Source: a virus. From it: a stretch of 20,365 nt of DNA. Positions 2,309 to 20,365 of the stretch are shown here, in pieces (the first letter of the stretch is position 1; each line of letters opens with the position of its first letter). Location of the stretch: positions 1 to 20,365 of the IMG/VR virus record IMGVR_UViG_3300008450_000609, one strand, 5' to 3'. The notes under the pieces were generated by a model. That model was not told the DNA's origin and did not search any database. It was given only the letters and a program-made list of their open reading frames with translations. The translations under genes were made by a program, and so were the position numbers.

Positions 2309-3628
2309 ATGAAACAAGGACAAAAATTTTCAGTAGTTAACGTAAATACAAACCAACTTCCAATCATTACGGAGGATACAAAGACCCGATATAGTTGGGT
2401 TCCGTTTGGTGTTTATGGACACGATGATTTCTTTGATGCAGTAACAACTGCTTACAATACTTCTACAACCAATGCAGCATCCATTGAGGGTATTGCAGAT
2501 TTAATCTTTGGTAAAGGTATATACTCTAAAAGAGAAGAGCTAAACAATGTGATAGCTAGGATTCTTCCACAGGAGGAATTGAAAAGAGTAACATTTGATT
2601 TTAAGTTGTTTGGTAATGCTGCATTCCAAGTCTATTGGAACGATGACCATACGAAGATAATTAAGATGTATCACGTGCCAGTACAAACTCTTCGTGCTGA
2701 AAAACTATATGGTTCTCCTCGTATTGAGAACTATTACTATTGTACCGATTGGAATGATGCAAGAAAAGTAAAAGATAAGAAGAAGATTCCTGCGTTTGAA
2801 ACATCAAATGAGAAGATGGAAATCCTTTATATCAAACACTATTGTCCTGGTTTATATTACTATGCATTGCCTGATTATGTATCATCTTTACAATTCAGTA
2901 TAAGTGAAGCAGAGTTAAGTAACTTACATTTAAGTAATATCACTAATGGTTTCTTACCATTGGTTATGGTAAACTTCAATAACGGAGTACCTGCACCTGA
3001 AGAAAGACAAACTATTGAGGATTTATTACAAGCTAAATTTACAGGCACAAATAATGCAGGTAGATTTATGTTATCATTTAACGATGACCCCCTAACTAAA
3101 CCAACGGTTGATGCAATTAGTATTGATAATATGCATGAGAAGTTTCAGTATGTAGCTGAATACGCACAGGATAGAATCCTTGTATCTCATAGAATTACAT
3201 CTCCACTCCTATTTGGTATCAGAACTGAAAACAATGGATTCTCTTCTCAATCAGAAGAAATGAAAACTGCATTCTCTATTATGCAAACGATGACAATCAT
3301 GCCATTCCAAAACATTCTATTGAACGCAATTGATTACGCATTAACGTGTGGTGGGTATCCTGATACTGAATTATACTTTGAACAATTAACTCCATTAGTA
3401 ATTCTTTCAACAACTGCTGAAGAAACTGATAAGAGTGTTGAGCAAGTAGAAGATGAAGTAAATGATTCAATGGAGAATCCTGCAACTGTTGAAGATGAAC
3501 CAGTAGATACAAATCAAAATGTTTCTCTTAATGATATTATTGATGAAATGAGTAGTGATAAGGATGAAATTGAATTTATCAGAAGAGTTGGAACTAATTC
3601 AGCATTTTTCGAAAAAGAATTTAAATAA
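2309..3628 (+). CDS. Portal protein
   Basis: A 439-residue protein of the usual portal size. Portals form the dodecameric ring at the capsid vertex through which DNA enters and to which the tail attaches. The middle of the protein resembles the portal core: LFGNAAFQVYWNDD with MYHVPVQTLR after it, the helical region with EERQTIEDLLQAKFTG, the GRFMLSF strand, and the region VSHRITSPLLFGIRT followed by a FSSQSEEMKTAF helix; this last pair matches the way HK97/PBSX-type portals continue after the stem. The C-terminal ~70 residues are very acidic and low in complexity. It starts one base after the previous stop. Confidence 0.85.
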   Translation: MKQGQKFSVVNVNTNQLPIITEDTKTRYSWVPFGVYGHDDFFDAVTTAYNTSTTNAASIEGIADLIFGKGIYSKREELNNVIARILPQEELKRVTFDFKLFGNAAFQVYWNDDHTKIIKMYHVPVQTLRAEKLYGSPRIENYYYCTDWNDARKVKDKKKIPAFETSNEKMEILYIKHYCPGLYYYALPDYVSSLQFSISEAELSNLHLSNITNGFLPLVMVNFNNGVPAPEERQTIEDLLQAKFTGTNNAGRFMLSFNDDPLTKPTVDAISIDNMHEKFQYVAEYAQDRILVSHRITSPLLFGIRTENNGFSSQSEEMKTAFSIMQTMTIMPFQNILLNAIDYALTCGGYPDTELYFEQLTPLVILSTTAEETDKSVEQVEDEVNDSMENPATVEDEPVDTNQNVSLNDIIDEMSSDKDEIEFIRRVGTNSAFFEKEFK

Positions 3629-3634
3629 AAATAT

Positions 3635-4150
3635 ATGTACGCATTATTCATAACACGAAACGATATTATAAAGAATACACCACTACAAGGTGCAATAGAT
3701 GCAGATGCTCTATTACCATTTTGTAGAACTGCGCAAGATAAGTACTTAAAGAACTTATTGGGTACTGTTCTTTTTGATTTCCTACAATCTAAAATAGAAA
3801 CCAATACCTTTAGTACTTTGGATGTTTACTATCAGGACTTAATGAATGACCATATCAAATATACACTATTGTGGTATGCATGTGTTGAATATATTCCTTT
3901 CAGTTCTATTCAGTTCAAATCGAATGGTGCCGTAAAACAACAAAGTGAGCAAGGTATCGCTCCATCAAAAGGAGAGATAGATTATCTTAAACAAATTGCA
4001 CAAACGAATGCTGATTACTATGCACTTCGTTTACAAAACTATTTAATTGCTTATAGTAATAATATACCTCAATACTTACAAAGTGTTGGAAATCAGACAC
4101 AAATATATCCTGACCAGAGTAATCAATACTTTGGTGGAATACAACTATAA
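3635..4150 (+). CDS. Putative head-tail connector (adaptor) protein
   Basis: A 171-residue, mostly helical protein directly after the portal, where phages keep the head completion or adaptor gene. The N-terminus (LFITRNDIIKNTPLQGAID) followed by ALLPFCRTAQDKYLKNLLG and a helix-rich middle (DLMNDHIKYTLLWYACVEYIPF) fits small helical connector proteins from Bacteroidota phages, which I recall being grouped as DUF6712-like. The C-terminal ~30 residues are Gln/Asn/Tyr-rich and probably flexible. The call is based on position and recall, with no diagnostic catalytic motif. Confidence 0.6.
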   Translation: MYALFITRNDIIKNTPLQGAIDADALLPFCRTAQDKYLKNLLGTVLFDFLQSKIETNTFSTLDVYYQDLMNDHIKYTLLWYACVEYIPFSSIQFKSNGAVKQQSEQGIAPSKGEIDYLKQIAQTNADYYALRLQNYLIAYSNNIPQYLQSVGNQTQIYPDQSNQYFGGIQL

Positions 4151-4156
4151 TATATT

Positions 4157-5023
4157 ATGGCTCAACAAATAGTACATAACACAGGTGTAAACTACTCACT
4201 TTATTACAATGTCCTAAATTACTTTAAGACGATAATGAAGAACCATCCTTCGATTCAATCAGTAACCTATGGTGATATTGATTCGATAGATGATAAGCAG
4301 TATCCTGAATATCCTTTGGGTAATGTGTTAATTACTGATAGTAGATTTGAAAAATCAACTACTACATTTACAGTCCAATTAACAATAGCTGATAAGCAGA
4401 AGAATCTAAATAACGAATCATCAGGTAGTAGAAACTCACTAACCGTACCATTCTATGGAGTAGATGATATGGTAGATATACACGCAAATACACTTGCAGT
4501 ATTAAACGATTTAACTGCGTATACACAGAGGGGGGTGCAAGGGTTTGAAGTAAACGGTGATATAAATTGTCAACCTTTCTCCGATAGGTTTAATAACGGA
4601 TTAGCAGGGTGGGTATCAACATTTGAACTAACTACTCACAACGATAAAAATCGTTGCCTTTTTTTTTTAGTTAACCCTAGTGGTAGTGGTTATATAATTG
4701 AAGAGTGTGATACGGGTGAAAGATATAAAGCAGTATTAACTGAATCAGGTAGTATAGGACAGGTCTTTATGAGTAAGTATTTTCCTAACTATAATAAAGA
4801 CATCACTACCTACTATGATTACAATTGTTATACTATTGTAGATACATTTAGTGGTGAAGATGATTATGATTATGTAAATTTACCGATACTTGCTCTACCT
4901 TATGTAGATTTTGGAACTTGTGAGTATTGTGATTTATGGGCTAATCCTCAAATATGGGGAACAACTCCACAAAAATGGGGACAAGGAACTGATGTAGCAT
5001 ATAGAAAATGGATATTCGATTAA
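4157..5023 (+). CDS. Putative tail terminator/completion protein with C-terminal extension
   Basis: Residues 1 to about 168 resemble tail completion proteins of related phages: NTGVNYSLYYNVLNYFKTI, VTYGDIDSID, a strand pair around VQLTIADKQKN, and a closing strand ending LTTHNDKNRC. Such proteins cap the tail tube at the neck. After NRC the gene contains ten consecutive T (4659-4668, codons for L-F-F-L), then a different domain of about 115 residues rich in Cys, Tyr, Trp and Asp (EECDTGERYKAV, YNCYTIVDTF, CEYCDLWANPQIWG). A -1 slip on the T run would stop at TAA 4672-4674, giving about 172 residues, close to what I would expect for the cap domain alone. The long version may be the real protein, or one of two products. 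Confidence 0.6.
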   Translation: MAQQIVHNTGVNYSLYYNVLNYFKTIMKNHPSIQSVTYGDIDSIDDKQYPEYPLGNVLITDSRFEKSTTTFTVQLTIADKQKNLNNESSGSRNSLTVPFYGVDDMVDIHANTLAVLNDLTAYTQRGVQGFEVNGDINCQPFSDRFNNGLAGWVSTFELTTHNDKNRCLFFLVNPSGSGYIIEECDTGERYKAVLTESGSIGQVFMSKYFPNYNKDITTYYDYNCYTIVDTFSGEDDYDYVNLPILALPYVDFGTCEYCDLWANPQIWGTTPQKWGQGTDVAYRKWIFD

Positions 5024-5040
5024 AAGATAAATAAAATAAA

Positions 5041-6732
5041 ATGGGAAGTTTAAGTAACTTATATATTTCACAAAGTTTTAAATCCTTAATACATTTAGGT
5101 AATGATAATTCAGCATCAGCTACACAAGTAGAATTGCAAGATGGTGTTGGAGCTGGATTAGGCATCTATGTGAATAATGCAGGAGATGTAACTATTGATG
5201 GCGCGTTAATCGTTAGTGGTACATTTGATATTGAAGGAAAGATTGTTGTAAATGATGATGTTAGAATCAATGGTAATTTAGAAGTTAGCGGTTCGACTAA
5301 ATTTACAGGCAGTTTAGTAGTAAGTAATCAACTTACTGCATCTTCTGCTTTTATTCAAAATGATTTGAATGTTGGTGGTACTCTATTCGCAAGTAAAGTT
5401 GTAACACTAATAGAATCATCATCCATTATTTTCTCATCAGGAAGCAATATATTAGGAGATGATATTTCAGATACACAAACCCTCATCGGTTCTGTTATCG
5501 TTTCAGGTAGTGGAGCTTTGACGGGTTCTATGGGTATATCTGGTGACTTGGAAGTAAAGGGTAATATATCTTCTTCTACCGTTAGTGGAATAGGTAATGT
5601 AACTTTGTATTCTCAATCAGTAGATGCAAGACTAGATATAGTAGAAGCTACTGCATCCCTATTTGTTCCATTCTCTCAATCTGTAGATGCACGTTTGGAT
5701 GTTGTTGAAGCAACTGCTAGTTTGTATATACCATTCAGTACTTCTGTAGATAGTAGATTAGACTTTTTAGAAGGACCTTTTAGTACATCAGTAGATGCCC
5801 GTTTAGATGTTGTGGAGGCAACTGCTTCATTATATGTTCCATTCAGTACTTCTGTAGATTCTCGTTTAGATTTTCTCGAAGGACCGTTTAGTACATCTGT
5901 TGATGCTAGATTAGATATAGTAGAAGCAACCGCTTCTTTATATGTTCCTTTCAGTACATCAGTTGATGCACGTTTAGATGCATTGGAAGCATTTACTGGC
6001 TCTCAAGGTTTAGTAAGTACGGCATCATTTAATGCGTATACTGCATCTGTTAATTCTGCTTTATCATCAATATATCAAACTACTGCAAGTTTAAATACAT
6101 TTACTCAATCTACGAATAGTAGATTAAATTCATTAGAAGCAGCAACTTCATCTTATGCTAATTCTGCATCAGTAGCAGCTGATTTTGTAACAACAAATAA
6201 TAATATAACTTCTTTATCTCAATCAGTTTCATCTTCAAATGCATTAACTAATAATAGAATAAATGTATTATCATCTTTTACAGGAAGTTATGCAACCACT
6301 GGTAGTAATTCATTTAATGGCAACCAAACAATAACAGGAAGTTTAATACTTTCATCATCTGCTGCAATTGAATTGGAAGTTATTGGTAATTCTGTATTCA
6401 CAGGAAGTGTAAGAGGACGAGTTTCAAATTTAAGTATATCATCAAATACTGCAAGTATGGATTTAAGTTTAGGTAACTTTTTTACAATAACATTAAATAC
6501 ATCACAAGCTTGTAGAATTGAACCTACTAATATACAACCAGGACAAACTACAACATTGAGGGTAACGCAAGCTAGTGGTGGAGGAGGAACAGTTCAGTTT
6601 CCAACAAATGTAGATTTCCCAACAGGATTTCAATATAGTGCTACACCTGCTGCAAATGCAACTGATATATTAACATTCTTATCATTTGATACCGCAAGTT
6701 TATATTATAGTAGAGCAAATCAATTTATTTAA
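5041..6732 (+). CDS. Repeat-rich tail fibre protein
   Basis: A 563-residue Ser/Thr-rich fibre-like protein. Residues ~40-110 are short strand repeats of the type DVTIDGALIVSG and DVRINGNLEVSG, typical of a trimeric beta-prism shaft. Residues ~120-150 contain ESSSIIFSSGSNILGDDISDT, like a motif in marine phage fibres. Residues 191-317 hold seven SVD(A/S)RLD repeats likely to form a coiled coil, followed by looser TASVNS/SRLNSLE repeats. The C-terminal ~110 residues (NFFTITL, TNIQPGQTTTLRV, GGGTVQF, DILTFLSFDTASLYY) look like a globular knob that could bind the host surface. It lies between tail-neck genes and a second fibre-like gene. Confidence 0.75.
   Translation: MGSLSNLYISQSFKSLIHLGNDNSASATQVELQDGVGAGLGIYVNNAGDVTIDGALIVSGTFDIEGKIVVNDDVRINGNLEVSGSTKFTGSLVVSNQLTASSAFIQNDLNVGGTLFASKVVTLIESSSIIFSSGSNILGDDISDTQTLIGSVIVSGSGALTGSMGISGDLEVKGNISSSTVSGIGNVTLYSQSVDARLDIVEATASLFVPFSQSVDARLDVVEATASLYIPFSTSVDSRLDFLEGPFSTSVDARLDVVEATASLYVPFSTSVDSRLDFLEGPFSTSVDARLDIVEATASLYVPFSTSVDARLDALEAFTGSQGLVSTASFNAYTASVNSALSSIYQTTASLNTFTQSTNSRLNSLEAATSSYANSASVAADFVTTNNNITSLSQSVSSSNALTNNRINVLSSFTGSYATTGSNSFNGNQTITGSLILSSSAAIELEVIGNSVFTGSVRGRVSNLSISSNTASMDLSLGNFFTITLNTSQACRIEPTNIQPGQTTTLRVTQASGGGGTVQFPTNVDFPTGFQYSATPAANATDILTFLSFDTASLYYSRANQFI
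5611..5990 (+). repeat. Seven SVDxRLD protein repeats inside the fibre gene
   Basis: Seven units begin S(Q/T)SVD(A/S)RLD. Four are the 21-residue form (ending VEATASL-F/Y-x-PF), two are a 15-residue form (ending FLEGPF), and the last runs into LEAFTGSQG. Long and short forms alternate in the middle. The amino acids are nearly identical but the codons differ widely, so the repeats are conserved at protein level. Hydrophobic spacing fits a trimeric coiled-coil shaft. Confidence 0.85.
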
Positions 6733-6734
6733 TA

Positions 6735-7349
6735 ATGTATATACCATCTCTCTTTAGTACTTCTCCCAATGGATGTCCTTCTGGAACTAATGCCTATAAA
6801 ATGGGTAATTTTGGAATAACTAATTTAAATACAGGCACAAGAGGAAGAATTACTGTAACTATAAATCAATTTACAAATGATGTAGTTGGTGAGAACTTTC
6901 AAGGTTCTGGTTCATATAGTACTGATATACAATTAGCAAATGGTGCATCTTTTAGTACTAATGGTATTCAACCACCTGCAACTGGTCCTGGAGCAAGTAC
7001 ACAATTAGCATATTGGGGTTCAGCTAATTCAAGCCAAACTACTAACTATTTTATAACATCTTCAAGCGGTGCACAACTAAATTATTGTTATGATTGTACA
7101 CAAAAATGGAGATATACCATTGGTTCTAGATTATGTCAGGATGCCCCTTGGCCATCATCAGCTATACCATTAAGGTTGGCAGTACTGACAAATCCTACAG
7201 GTTCTATAACAAATTCTGCTCATTATACAAGAGTTACCTTTAATTTTTGTGCAGGTACAACTGGTAGTATTGAAGGATACGGTCCTATATGGCAAGGAAG
7301 TGATGATAACGCACCAGGATATTATATTGTAAGTAGAGAAGCTATATAA
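6735..7349 (+). CDS. Virion protein, possible fibre tip or adhesin
   Basis: A 204-residue, Ser/Thr/Asn/Gly-rich protein starting two bases after the fibre gene. It has no signal peptide or membrane helix. Six cysteines are present, including a CYDC pair near residue 119, as in receptor-binding or zinc-binding tips. The composition and close coupling suggest it works with the preceding fibre. I do not recognise a family, and it could be another minor virion protein. Confidence 0.65.
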   Translation: MYIPSLFSTSPNGCPSGTNAYKMGNFGITNLNTGTRGRITVTINQFTNDVVGENFQGSGSYSTDIQLANGASFSTNGIQPPATGPGASTQLAYWGSANSSQTTNYFITSSSGAQLNYCYDCTQKWRYTIGSRLCQDAPWPSSAIPLRLAVLTNPTGSITNSAHYTRVTFNFCAGTTGSIEGYGPIWQGSDDNAPGYYIVSREAI

Positions 7350-9013: not shown

Positions 9014-9469
9014 ATGAAAAAGTGGTGTGTATACGAATTAGTAAATTTAATGGGAACGGTTGAATGGGTAGGAGAAACTACTAGATACAAAAGACGAATG
9101 TACGAACATACTAAAATAAAACCAAAGGATACACAGAGAAATGGTTATTTTTATGGAAGACAAGATATAATGATGAATATAGTACACGAGTTTGATAATA
9201 GAAAAGATGCTCTAGAATTAGAAAGTGAATTGAAAACATTTTATGGATTACCATTGAGTGAGAAAGAAGGTAGGTTAAAAGGAGCTTTAAAAGGTGGAAA
9301 ATCTGCAGTTGAATCAGGACAATTAAAGTCAGTATGTAGTATGGGAGGAAAAATTGGTGGAAAGATAGCAGGTAAGTTACAATCACAAAAGGAATACATT
9401 TGTCCAAATTGCAATAGAAAAGGAAGAGGAAATAGATTCGTATCACATATTAAAAATTGTAAAATATAA
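9014..9469 (+). CDS. GIY-YIG-type homing endonuclease (free-standing)
   Basis: A 151-residue protein. Residues 5-35 fit the GIY-YIG nuclease core: CVYEL (GIY-like strand, residues 5-9), VEWVG (YIG-like strand, 16-20), then ETTRYKRRMYEH with Arg24/Arg28 and His32; Glu at about residue 70 in ALELESELK is a candidate metal-binding residue. A Lys/Gly-rich linker (GGKIGGKIAGK, ~111-121) resembles NUMOD-type DNA-binding repeats, and residues 130-149 form CPNC-x11-H-x3-C, a zinc finger. Such enzymes cut intronless or gene-free alleles to spread their own gene. It sits between two tail genes with its own promoter-like site and is likely a mobile insertion. Confidence 0.75.
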   Translation: MKKWCVYELVNLMGTVEWVGETTRYKRRMYEHTKIKPKDTQRNGYFYGRQDIMMNIVHEFDNRKDALELESELKTFYGLPLSEKEGRLKGALKGGKSAVESGQLKSVCSMGGKIGGKIAGKLQSQKEYICPNCNRKGRGNRFVSHIKNCKI

Positions 9470-16551: not shown

Positions 16552-16737
16552 TTAGGATAAATCTACACCTCTATTCATTTGTTTTAGAAATGAATTTAAT
16601 TTTCTGTATCTACTTTCAGTAATATGAAATCCGATAGATTCTAATGCATCTACCATTCTTCCCCAATGCGATGTTCCTGCTACTTTCTCTTTGGTTTGTG
16701 AGAATACTTCGTTTAGCAATTTCTCTGTAAGTTTCAT
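16552..16737 (-). CDS. Small hypothetical protein (61 aa)
   Basis: A helical protein (LTEKLLNEVFSQTKEK, MVDALESIGFHITESRYRKL) with basic and aromatic residues, last gene of the - strand operon. The start is fixed by the CCTAAAACA leader 9 bp upstream. The helix-turn-helix-like spacing in the second half is suggestive but not diagnostic. No family recognised. Confidence 0.65.
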   Translation of the reverse strand: MKLTEKLLNEVFSQTKEKVAGTSHWGRMVDALESIGFHITESRYRKLNSFLKQMNRGVDLS

Positions 16738-16746
16738 AACGATTTG

Positions 16747-16755
16747 TGTTTTAGG
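16747..16755 (-). promoter_or_regulatory. CCTAAAACA leader of the 61-aa gene
   Basis: On the - strand, CCTAAAACA ends 9 bp before the ATG. The same element precedes several neighbouring genes at the same distance and probably helps set the translation start. Confidence 0.6.
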
Positions 16756-16757
16756 GG

Positions 16758-16970
16758 TTATAGTTTATATAAAATAGAATTTAGTTCAGCAATTGTTCGT
16801 TTTTTAGAAGGTATTGTATCTTCTATCAATTGAGTTTTTTTTGCTTTATTTCTCCTAAATTCATTTTCAACATAAGATTCATCGTATCGTAATGAGTTCT
16901 CATACGATGATAACGTATTCAATAAAATACCTTTTACAAATTCTAATTCAGTTTGTGTTAATGTGTTCAT
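16758..16970 (-). CDS. Small hypothetical protein (70 aa), coiled coil
   Basis: A charged helical protein: TQTELEFVKGILLNTLSSY, then ENEFRRNKAKKTQL and KKRTIAELNSILYKL. No membrane segment or catalytic motif. Start supported by the CCTAAAACA leader 9 bp upstream. Function unknown; one of a set of small early-type genes. Confidence 0.65.
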   Translation of the reverse strand: MNTLTQTELEFVKGILLNTLSSYENSLRYDESYVENEFRRNKAKKTQLIEDTIPSKKRTIAELNSILYKL

Positions 16971-16979
16971 AACTTTTTT

Positions 16980-16988
16980 TGTTTTAGG
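16980..16988 (-). promoter_or_regulatory. CCTAAAACA leader of the 70-aa gene
   Basis: On the - strand CCTAAAACA, inside the longer shared TTAAACCCTAAAACA, ends 9 bp before the start codon. The 15-base version is repeated before the 81-aa gene that starts at 18093. Confidence 0.6.
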
Positions 16989-16994
16989 GTTTAA

Positions 16995-17138
16995 TTAATT
17001 ATTTTCGTAGTATTGGAATATCTCCTCTTCCAACTCTTCTATATCCAATCTCATATTTTCATCATACTCTGTTGATTGTGAATACTCTTCTTTCAAATCA
17101 ATCAATCTCATTTCTAATTGTTCGATGTAACTTTCCAT
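16995..17138 (-). CDS. Small acidic coiled-coil protein (47 aa)
   Basis: ATG at 17136-17138 and TAA at 16995-16997. The product is very acidic and helical (YIEQLEMRLIDLKEEY, then LDIEELEEEIFQYYENN). It fits between its neighbours with ~20-bp gaps and has an A-rich leader (ACTTAAACAAATAAAAAA), a weaker version of the motif used by the other genes. Acidic small early phage proteins sometimes mimic DNA, but nothing here shows this. Confidence 0.6.
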   Translation of the reverse strand: MESYIEQLEMRLIDLKEEYSQSTEYDENMRLDIEELEEEIFQYYENN

Positions 17139-17158
17139 TTTTTTATTTGTTTAAGTGT

Positions 17159-17365
17159 TTATTGATTTTGGAACTCTAATGAATTTAATTTTTCTAAATC
17201 TTCTTTATGCCAACGGATAACTAGTTTGGTTGCTTCCATTTCTTTTTTGATTTCTTCTATACGTTTTGCCATTTCTGTTAACCATTCTTCGTAAGAAGAA
17301 ATTTGTTCAGTAATCTCTTTAATTCTTTTTTCTTTTTGTTTTTCAAAGGTTTCTAATGTGTACAT
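17159..17365 (-). CDS. Small coiled-coil protein (68 aa)
   Basis: A Lys/Glu-rich, continuous helix (FEKQKEKRIKEITEQISSY, MAKRIEEIKKEMEATKLVI) very likely to form a coiled coil. The leader (CCCTTAAAACTTAAACA) carries a modified form of the shared element further upstream. No known family. Confidence 0.65.
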   Translation of the reverse strand: MYTLETFEKQKEKRIKEITEQISSYEEWLTEMAKRIEEIKKEMEATKLVIRWHKEDLEKLNSLEFQNQ

Positions 17366-17391
17366 AATTGTTTTTGTTTAAGTTTTAAGGG

Positions 17392-17565
17392 TTATTTATT
17401 TAATTCTTGAAGTGATTTTTCTAAATCGGAAATCCTCGATTGGATGTTCTTCGCGGTTTCAGCAATGTGTCCCCAATAGGATAACATCTCTTTTTGTGAT
17501 GCAATCTCATCTAGGATGATTTGTCTCTTTCTTGATAGGAAATCTGAAGTGGTTATGGTATTCAT
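17392..17565 (-). CDS. Small coiled-coil protein (57 aa)
   Basis: The start is placed at 17565 (MNTITTSDFL) rather than an in-frame ATG at 17637, because the latter lies upstream of the promoter at 17603-17633 and the 24 extra residues do not look like the rest. The protein is helical (FLSRKRQIILDEIASQKEM, then QSRISDLEKSLQELNK). The leader here has CCTAA and AATT but not the full shared element. Confidence 0.6.
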   Translation of the reverse strand: MNTITTSDFLSRKRQIILDEIASQKEMLSYWGHIAETAKNIQSRISDLEKSLQELNK

Positions 17566-17602
17566 AATTAGGGGGGTTAGGGGTTGAACTCTCATTACCT
17601 TA

Positions 17603-17633
17603 CAAACATACGAAATTCTGGCTTCATATCCAA
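17603..17633 (-). promoter_or_regulatory. Internal promoter of the small-gene operon
   Basis: On the - strand: TTG (17631-17633), 20-bp spacer, TATGTTTG (17603-17610), a full match to the flavobacterial -7 consensus TAnnTTTG. Preceded by TTCG, as in the promoter at 18600. It would transcribe the five downstream genes. Confidence 0.7.
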
Positions 17634-17645
17634 GCACTTTCGTAA

Positions 17646-17843
17646 TTATTTTTCGGTTTCTTTTCGTAATTTCTTATCAATTCTATTGATAAGTTCAAAT
17701 GAACCATCAATACAATATGATTCAAAACCCATAGTAATACCAATCAGTTCTGATAAGGTATACTTCCTATCCTGTCCATTAACCCACTCTACTGCGGATT
17801 TAAGAGATGATTGCCTGATAATTTGTCTTTGAGTATCGTTCAT
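17646..17843 (-). CDS. Small hypothetical protein (65 aa)
   Basis: Start chosen at 17843 (MNDTQRQIIRQSS), directly after CCTAAAACA; an in-frame ATG seven codons earlier lacks this leader. The protein is helical with a mixed middle (AVEWVNGQDRKYTLSELIGI) and a basic C-terminus (NRIDKKLRKETEK). No family recognised. The AACAATGA around its start is complementary to the terminator loop of the RNA at 19935-20044. Confidence 0.6.
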   Translation of the reverse strand: MNDTQRQIIRQSSLKSAVEWVNGQDRKYTLSELIGITMGFESYCIDGSFELINRIDKKLRKETEK

Positions 17844-17852
17844 TGTTTTAGG
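17844..17852 (-). promoter_or_regulatory. CCTAAAACA leader fused to the start of the 65-aa gene
   Basis: On the - strand the motif runs directly into the start codon (CCTAAAACA-ATG), unlike the other copies, which lie 8-9 bp upstream. It also contains the stop codon of the upstream gene. Confidence 0.55.
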
Positions 17853-18093
17853 AGTTAGTAACATAGTGAGAAGGACAAATCTCTAATTTTTGGTTATCTA
17901 ACCACTTCAGTTTGTAATTGATACATTTAATTTGTAATTTATAATTAGCTATATCTTCTTTACTGCCTGATTGTTTTGTGATTTGTAGGTTGTGGCGTGC
18001 ACGTTCTAACTCATCACACAACATATACTCTATTGCGTATAAATACGATGCGAGACTTCGTTGTAATCGTAACTCTTCTACTTGCTTTTTCAT
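17848..18093 (-). CDS. Small helical protein (81 aa)
   Basis: A helical protein (KKQVEELRLQRSLASYLYAI, LCDELERARHNLQITKQ, YKLQIKCINYKLKWLDNQK) with a Cys-containing polar tail. Start supported by the shared TTAAACCCTAAAACA element 8 bp upstream. Its stop overlaps the leader of the next gene. No function known. Confidence 0.65.
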   Translation of the reverse strand: MKKQVEELRLQRSLASYLYAIEYMLCDELERARHNLQITKQSGSKEDIANYKLQIKCINYKLKWLDNQKLEICPSHYVTNS

Positions 18094-18101
18094 AACTGTT
18101 T

Positions 18102-18110
18102 TGTTTTAGG
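18102..18110 (-). promoter_or_regulatory. CCTAAAACA leader of the 81-aa gene
   Basis: On the - strand the motif ends 8 bp before the ATG and lies within TTAAACCCTAAAACA, as upstream of the 70-aa gene. Confidence 0.6.
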
Positions 18111-18120
18111 GTTTAAGGTA

Positions 18121-18136
18121 GGGAGGTTTCCCTCCC
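18121..18136 (-). promoter_or_regulatory. GC-rich hairpin with GAAA tetraloop on the - strand
   Basis: GGGAGG-GAAA-CCTCCC read on the - strand: a 6-bp GC stem closed by a GNRA loop, between the 130-aa gene and the next gene. There is no T run downstream on the - strand, so it is more likely an mRNA processing or stability element; read on the + strand it is followed by TTTTATT and could stop antisense transcription. Confidence 0.5.
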
Positions 18137-18142
18137 CTTTTA

Positions 18143-18535
18143 TTAAATATATTGTTTTGATGATTCGTAAATTGGTAACCAATAATCATTGTAAGTTTTT
18201 TCGATACCATTCCTTAACCATCTTAAAAACTCTTTATTAGTTTCCTCATCTGTAAAACCTTCTTTGATGCACTCACTAATTGGAAACTCTCCAACTAATA
18301 TATTATACACCCATGATGAAGAGAAACTAACTTTGTAATTACCTTTATTTGTTTCCACAATTTGAAAACCGAAATCCCATTCACTGTGGTAATACATAGT
18401 TCCCATACAAAAACCTTCTACTAATTCATTACCATTGTTATAAGAGGTTTCCCAACCTTTACCCCATTTACCCATTGATTTGAAATCTTCTGTTGAAAGA
18501 ACGATTACTGATTTGTTGTTTTGTACCTTTTTCAT
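18143..18535 (-). CDS. Hypothetical protein (130 aa), first gene of the small-gene operon
   Basis: A mixed alpha/beta, aromatic-rich protein (FKSMGKWGKGWETSYNNG, MYYHSEWDFGFQIVET, FSSSWVYNILVGEF, NKEFLRWLRNGIEKTYNDYW) without signal peptide or membrane segment. It is the largest member and the first to be transcribed from the promoter near 18600, as expected for an early gene, but I recognise no family. The start ATG has the CTAAAACA leader 8 bp upstream, and AACAATGA around the start is complementary to the second RNA loop. Confidence 0.7.
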   Translation of the reverse strand: MKKVQNNKSVIVLSTEDFKSMGKWGKGWETSYNNGNELVEGFCMGTMYYHSEWDFGFQIVETNKGNYKVSFSSSWVYNILVGEFPISECIKEGFTDEETNKEFLRWLRNGIEKTYNDYWLPIYESSKQYI

Positions 18536-19897: not shown

Positions 19898-19934
19898 ACC
19901 AATTACAAAATCAATCTATGTTGTTATATAATAC

Positions 19935-20044
19935 AGATGAGCTTAATCAATACTGAATTGTTTATGCTATTTTATATTCAGTGCTCATCTACTTTTAGAT
20001 ATATGCTAAAGAGCCAGGTTCGTCATTGTTCCCTGGCTCTTTTT
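19935..20044 (+). ncRNA. Candidate small RNA with antisense-like terminator loop
   Basis: Hairpin A: AGATGAGC (19935-19942) pairs with GCTCATCT (19983-19990), then, after a 9-nt bulge, ACTGAAT (19952-19958) pairs with ATTCAGT (19976-19982) around a 17-nt loop. A linker leads to hairpin B, a perfect 11-bp terminator (20008-20018 with 20032-20042) with a 13-nt loop holding GTCATTGTT (20022-20030). That loop sequence is complementary to AACAATGAC at the start of the next gene (20137-20145). No gene fits in 19898-20140. The RNA could be cut from the 3' end of the replication transcript; a weak TATAAT at 19927 is the only local promoter candidate. Confidence 0.5.
20008..20044 (+). terminator. Strong intrinsic terminator
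   Basis: AAAGAGCCAGG (20008-20018) pairs perfectly with CCTGGCTCTTT (20032-20042), followed by more T and TTTATTT. It ends the replication transcript and forms the 3' part of the candidate small RNA. Confidence 0.9.
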
Positions 20045-20056
20045 ATTTACAGATAC

Positions 20057-20087
20057 TTGTAAATCTAAAAATTATTTAGTATATTTA
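20057..20087 (+). promoter_or_regulatory. Promoter of the zinc-ribbon gene
   Basis: TTG (20057-20059), 20-bp spacer, TATATTTA (20080-20087), preceded by G. The spacing is identical to the sites at 8970 and 18766. A leader of roughly 45 nt would precede the ATG at 20141. Confidence 0.55.
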
Positions 20088-20140
20088 AGGAATTATTTAT
20101 CTTTTTTCTGGGAAAGTGATATTTATAGTAAAAGCAAACA

Positions 20141-20365
20141 ATGACACAAACTAAACACTGCTACGCATGTAGCATTACCAAACCTACCACAGACTTCTCT
20201 AAATGTAAAAAGAGCAAGGATTCCCTTCAACCAAAATGTAAGGAATGTAACAAAGTGGATAATCACAAATTCAGAACCACACTAAATCCTAAACACCATA
20301 CTCAATGGCAAAAAGATAATGCTAAAAGAGTATGTGAAATTGTCAGAAAGCATAGAGCTGCTGAT
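20141..20365 (+). CDS. Zinc-ribbon protein, HNH or endonuclease VII-like N-terminus (partial)
   Basis: The ATG at 20141 opens 75 codons that run off the window. Residues 7-36 are CYAC, then CPKCKEC-like (CxxC-x22-CxxC, Cys7, Cys10, Cys33, Cys36) in the arrangement seen at the N-terminus of phage HNH and endonuclease VII-type nucleases. The nuclease core would lie downstream, so the enzyme call is unproven. Codons are more C-rich (TAC, ACC, TTC) than in the neighbouring genes, a possible sign of separate origin. Start region AACAATGAC is the complement of the upstream RNA loop. Confidence 0.6.
   Translation, partial: MTQTKHCYACSITKPTTDFSKCKKSKDSLQPKCKECNKVDNHKFRTTLNPKHHTQWQKDNAKRVCEIVRKHRAAD

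Follow-up and report, generated by a model that had tools for sequence, protein, structure and literature searches.

A terminator loop complementary to an endonuclease start codon

Why should the loop of a transcription terminator be complementary to the start codon of the gene that follows it? This question is raised by the right end of the window, by which we mean the whole stretch of phage DNA analyzed here, a linear IMG/VR record of 20,365 bases. On the plus strand, sequence and fold reveal a terminator hairpin at 20008..20042 (stem AAAGAGCCAGG/CCTGGCTCTTT at 20008-20018/20032-20042, followed by a T run) with the 13-nt loop TTCGTCATTGTTC at 20019..20031. Within this loop, GTCATTGTT at 20022-20030 is a 9-nt complement of AACAATGAC at 20137..20145, which surrounds the start codon (ATG at 20141) of an endonuclease gene on the same strand. 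Hairpin, loop and 9-nt complement are exactly as the initial annotation had described them, and the loop is largely single-stranded across the computed ensemble (0.79 unpaired). The hairpin was missed by a simple terminator scan because the loop limit of that scan is 8, and a DNA search with the exact stem of the terminator gave matches in unrelated contigs only.

Judged from the window alone, the match is moderately unusual and suggestive only, with at least 9 nt of complementarity to the 20141 start reached by 0.5% of shuffled loops (P 0.005). The comparison with shuffled loops that had been proposed at the outset singles out the 20141 start, and the other starts are not in excess. It had also been suggested that the loop blocks translation initiation at three genes, the additional two being marked by AACAATGA, and these sites do exist on the minus strand, running from 17847 downwards (ATG 17843) and from 18539 downwards (ATG 18535); the frame at 17843 has an additional upstream ATG at 17864, though 17843 is still a plausible start. 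Comparing every loop, across 18 phage contigs, with all the gene starts predicted on the contig that carries it, we found that 28 of the 499 non-endonuclease starts shared at least 7 nt (32.4 ± 7.1 expected) and five at least 8 nt (9.5 expected), while in two relatives with a loop nearly identical to that of the window (G001 and G004) no other start reached 7 nt. Since these other starts match at chance level, the extra targets at 17843 and 18535 are not supported and we reject a regulon of three genes; what survives is an antisense block at the adjacent endonuclease, for which covariation speaks. The AACAATGA matches at small genes may simply reflect a shared A-rich start context. The minus strand of the window carries a block of very small genes at 16552-18535, most of them with a similar leader (CYYTAAAACAAA...ATG).

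Loop and start codon change together

Relatives of the locus, metagenomic fragments like the window itself, were gathered via homologs of the 20141 gene, via homologs of an upstream replication-type gene and by RNA-motif searches, and they identify the match at the 20141 start as genuine rather than a product of chance. Among 19 representatives, the loop and the endonuclease start share 5-10 complementary nucleotides when only Watson-Crick pairs are counted, and the mean of 7.95 nt for a phage's own loop and start compares with 6.08 nt for loops swapped among phages (0/20,000 permutations). Duplex energies, calculated with one member for each of 10 loop types, likewise average -10.4 kcal/mol for own pairs versus -6.5 (sd 0.85) for permuted ones (0/5,000). 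This signal is antisense only, with a flat same-sense control (3.16 versus 3.25) and a reversed control in which own pairs do not exceed swapped ones. The best match between -60 and +400 lies at the gene start in 18 of the 19 representatives, tied with a site elsewhere in four, and the one exception (G014) requires a G.U pair. Pairing falls on the start codon or at most 13 nt upstream of it, and in most members the start codon itself is part of the duplex.

The paired sequences differ widely from phage to phage, from GTCATTGTT/AACAATGAC in the window to AGTGCCA/TGGCACT in L038, TTGCCATCTT/AAGATGGCAA in L049, GTCATATT/AATATGAC in L050 and TTGTGCCAT/ATGGCACAA in L103. The clearest paired change separates L039 (G008) from L048 (G022), whose terminator hairpins differ by GTCATT to GCTATT alone, while the target has gone from AATGAC to AATAGC and the mRNA from AATGACAAATATG to AATAGCAATTATG, losing its first ATG; in the tree, G022 sits inside the GTCATT clade. 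The duplexes are short, at 6-10 nt, and some are weak, as in G021 (6 nt, no better than shuffled) and G016 (7 nt). Overall, the predicted pairing of loop and start is well supported by covariation, and because both change together in evolution, the RNA that carries the loop very probably blocks production of the endonuclease.

A conserved structured RNA of which the hairpin forms the 3' half

What the initial annotation could not see is that the terminator hairpin makes up the 3' half of a larger conserved RNA. The 5' domain of this RNA is itself structured; it spans 19936..19989 on the plus strand of the window (covariance model score 61.1 bits, E 1e-10) and comprises two helices and a conserved 5' bulge, TTAATCAAT. 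Helix P1 pairs GATGAGC (19936-19942) with GCTCATC (19983-19989), helix P2 pairs ACTGAAT (19952-19958) with ATTCAGT (19976-19982), and both show covariation: across 21 aligned members and the 15 base pairs of the two helices, 97.4% of cells are paired and 52 cells are altered on both sides, none of 500 shuffles was as good, and the pairing is lost when the partner strand is slid along the alignment. The element thus combines a conserved secondary structure in its 5' domain with conserved complementarity to an mRNA, two hallmarks of a base-pairing sRNA. An outer helix P0, formed by the TGTTAT region with an ATATAT spacer, is not claimed, own and swapped pairs both scoring 6.86.

The RNA is about 110-150 nt long in some 20 other phage contigs, and the copy in the window extends from about 19930 to 20047. 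At around 20 further distinct loci it is found together with an endonuclease gene, always in the order P1, conserved bulge (C)TTAATYCAAT, P2, spacer and hairpin, the latter being an intrinsic terminator in most members; in L103 and the contigs of L032 and L033, the anti-start loop belongs to an additional hairpin that precedes the terminator. Of 39 phage records, 27 are matched by the covariance model of the 5' domain, each of them exactly once. Relatives G025-G028 and G035 carry the endonuclease with no detected RNA, so the RNA is not obligatory.

No Rfam family scored above its gathering threshold for the window and related loci, which gave sub-threshold matches only, and the predicted RNA is a previously unlisted family absent from Rfam. 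No tRNA or tmRNA was found, and neither a search for DNA matches among named phages nor a search of the Nonlabens phage P12024S genome with the RNA model returned a match; in bacterial genomes the endonuclease had no relative, and a single pattern match there is attributed to chance. The closest named relatives of the portal protein belong to Nonlabens phages of Flavobacteriaceae, the nearest being P12024S with 36% identity, and the promoter-like sites of the window are of the Bacteroidota type. Together, these two observations make a Bacteroidota host likely, and phages with this RNA family probably infect Bacteroidota in general.

The predicted target is an endonuclease of either of two superfamilies

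The window includes only the first 75 codons of the gene at 20141..20365 (plus strand), which runs into the contig end and encodes a CxxC zinc-ribbon N-terminus with matches to PHROG endonuclease families. Its product is 95% identical over 75 aa to a full-length homolog in L036, and homologs of full length end in a GIY-YIG domain (Pfam E 1.5e-6 in L034), retain the GIY-YIG residues (IYxI..YIG, R, H, E and N) and match PHROG homing endonucleases in L039 and L036. Because the contig ends within the window gene, the predicted identity of this gene as a GIY-YIG endonuclease was assessed on these homologs. A PDB profile search gave no match, and named phages matched the GIY-YIG protein by its zinc ribbon only.

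In five other contigs (L126, L102, L125, L117 and L092), the loop-paired gene is an HNH_3 endonuclease that is unrelated to GIY-YIG. The RNAs of L103 and L117 are nearly identical, and the first precedes a GIY-YIG gene (ATGGCACAA) while the second precedes an HNH gene (ATGGTACAAA) with which it can pair by including one G.U. The predicted target tracks endonuclease function and not sequence family.

Several additional endonuclease loci were observed. A second GIY-YIG gene of the window (9014-9469, Pfam E 9.5e-9) stands alone among structural genes, and the covariance model finds no RNA copy near it. L005 has a NUMOD4/HNH_3 gene (6474-7037) flanked by the upstream operon and the RNA; mobile endonucleases seem to have a hot spot here. 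In L057 (2818-2922) and L060 (2807-2913), a different RNA with three hairpins, which our model does not match, precedes related GIY-YIG genes; the loop of its first hairpin, TTCTTTA(G/A)TGCCATTTAGG, complements the start AATGG(C/T)A over 7 nt (with one G.U in L060), a match that taken singly has a P of 0.06-0.08. This RNA may have arisen independently, or it may be the same element after strong divergence.

Probable separate transcripts and action in trans

In most members the RNA and the gene lie in tandem, about 70-125 nt apart. The gap between terminator and gene contains a TTG-N17-22-TAHHTT site at 16 of 17 loci versus 3.0 expected; in the window, this is a putative Bacteroidota sigma-A-type promoter for the endonuclease mRNA, TTG-N20-TATATT, at 20057..20085 on the plus strand. 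Given such a promoter-like site between terminator and gene, RNA and endonuclease mRNA are predicted to be separate transcripts and probably are. Upstream of the RNA, a sigma-A-type promoter is obvious in just 6 of 18 members and not seen in the window. All 22 of 22 members have a conserved TGTT[AT] box 12-15 nt upstream of P1 (TGTTAT at 19922..19927, plus strand, in the window), and this box, which occurs with or without a visible sigma-A-like promoter, is possibly a phage-specific promoter element or a 5' segment of the RNA. L005 (8539-9090) and L092 (reverse strand, 5621-6190) share a conserved gene that by eye resembles sigma-70-type proteins, and a gene of similar size in Nonlabens phage P12024S is annotated as sigma-70 region 2; such a gene could serve phage-specific promoters, for example that of the RNA.

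RNA and target are not always neighbors. In G031 and G032 (the contigs of L032 and L033), the RNA lies at the end of a leftward block of small genes, on the strand opposite the endonuclease and about 1.5 kb from its start; in G032, the RNA is at 4339 and the endonuclease starts at 2831 on the minus strand. The loop of the L032/L033 contigs, TTTGTGCCATCT, still complements ATGGCAC at the endonuclease start, though the match in G032 is 7 nt and thus modest evidence. That an RNA on the opposite strand some 1.5 kb away keeps a matching loop favors action in trans. In G024 (L092), an HNH-type gene on the reverse strand (about 3264-3964) separates the RNA from the loop-matched HNH gene. This intervening gene has its own promoter-like site and looks like a recent insertion.

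Proposed mechanism and alternative explanations

Our favored explanation, which we hold to be likely on the sequence comparisons presented here, is an antisense sRNA that acts in trans and whose dedicated role is to silence a homing-type endonuclease at the step of translation initiation. The hairpin would lie at the 3' terminus of this phage sRNA, transcribed apart from the downstream endonuclease mRNA, with an intrinsic terminator that presents the anti-start loop. Over 7-10 bp, this loop would pair with the endonuclease mRNA around its start codon and keep Bacteroidota ribosomes, which do not rely on Shine-Dalgarno sites, from initiating, so that the mobile GIY-YIG or HNH endonuclease would be silenced or timed, either staying off until its mRNA outnumbers the RNA or being kept low throughout. 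Holding down a DNA-cutting mobile enzyme would presumably be of benefit. Flavobacteria and other Bacteroidota have mRNAs without Shine-Dalgarno sequences, and pairing in the start region hinders initiation (PMC6847099); masking the start codon would thus be a natural route to repression. We further consider it reasonably probable that the element is a retargetable endonuclease silencer, acting in trans from a conserved scaffold whose loop is rewritten when the gene or its start changes and which has been kept across a swap of endonuclease superfamily.

The alternative that fares best, though we think it unlikely, is a cis-acting leader in which the loop of read-through transcripts folds onto the start of its own mRNA and a downstream promoter gives translatable mRNA. 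The tandem arrangement of RNA and gene, 70-125 nt apart in most members, and the promoter between them would fit this idea, and T4 I-TevI, segB and mobE indeed combine an upstream RNA structure with a downstream promoter (PMC2988022). Against it, an intrinsic terminator as well as a promoter stands between loop and gene, although some transcripts may read through, and the two are not adjacent in G024, where a whole gene intervenes, or in G031/G032, where the RNA is on the opposite strand; a separate and strongly covarying 5' domain would also be superfluous for a simple leader. It is quite improbable that the RNA activates, stabilizes or times translation of the endonuclease rather than repressing it: covariation reveals pairing and not its sign, and RepG represses or activates depending on the target (PMC8295292), yet the start codon itself is covered in most members, which would normally block initiation, and T4 homing endonucleases are under negative regulation (PMC2988022).

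We see very little room for a purely DNA-level explanation in which the endonuclease binds or cuts a site that is present in inverted orientation at loop and start, serving autoregulation or homing with no RNA pairing. I-TevI does have an operator at its own promoter (PMC2988022) and the paired sequences are close on the DNA in most members, but the match exists in antisense orientation only, one copy is always at a translation start, the other is always in a hairpin loop of the structured RNA even where this lies outside the terminator (G013 and G032), and the same arrangement recurs with unrelated GIY-YIG and HNH proteins. Least credible of all is chance complementarity between CAT-bearing loops and A-rich start contexts that contain ATG, as seen for the two other proposed targets and for AACAATG, which is found several times in the window, because swaps that preserve both ATG and A-richness never did as well (0/20,000 and 0/5,000), other genes of the same contigs match at chance, and some paired changes fall outside the ATG (G022).

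Relation to known systems and significance

Homing endonucleases are selfish genes common in phages, and what stops them from harming their own phage is known mainly from cis hairpins of T4-like phages. Type I toxin-antitoxin systems, in turn, use a small RNA that base-pairs with the transcript of a neighboring gene whose product may be harmful. The RNA family described here would resemble the latter in targeting such a neighbor, but the target is a mobile endonuclease instead of a typical small membrane toxin, and the RNA is encoded in tandem or at a distance and not as an overlapping antisense transcript.

For T4-type homing endonucleases (I-TevI, segB and Aeh1 mobE), translation is repressed by RNA hairpins in cis (PMC2988022). 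Both there and in our proposal, a phage homing-type endonuclease is held down at initiation by an upstream RNA structure and has a separate downstream promoter, but the T4-type hairpin lies within the mRNA leader and sequesters the Shine-Dalgarno site (PMC2988022), whereas the family of the window would be a separate, terminated and structured RNA that pairs with the start codon in phages of a group lacking Shine-Dalgarno sites, and in some of these phages does so from another locus. The use of an intrinsic terminator loop as mRNA-pairing seed recalls the Helicobacter sRNA RepG, which is chromosomal and targets a G-repeat in a leader (PMC8295292) and has no known sequence relation to the RNA of the window; in our case, the loop and the start codon of the neighboring endonuclease evolve together. 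CfrI of cyanophage S-PM2 is likewise an antisense RNA that a phage encodes near a homing endonuclease gene, but it comes from the psbA-endonuclease intergenic region, is proposed to act on psbA and, in the review PMC12197685, is not described as having a loop complementary to an endonuclease start. What is new is the RNA family, while the kind of control is already known and appears here as a variant.

With a seed that evolves together with its single target, this conserved antisense RNA offers a clean natural record of sRNA-mRNA co-evolution. Its design of scaffold plus loop is simple and directly testable, and it suggests how pairing at the start codon can regulate genes where a phylum makes no use of Shine-Dalgarno sequences.
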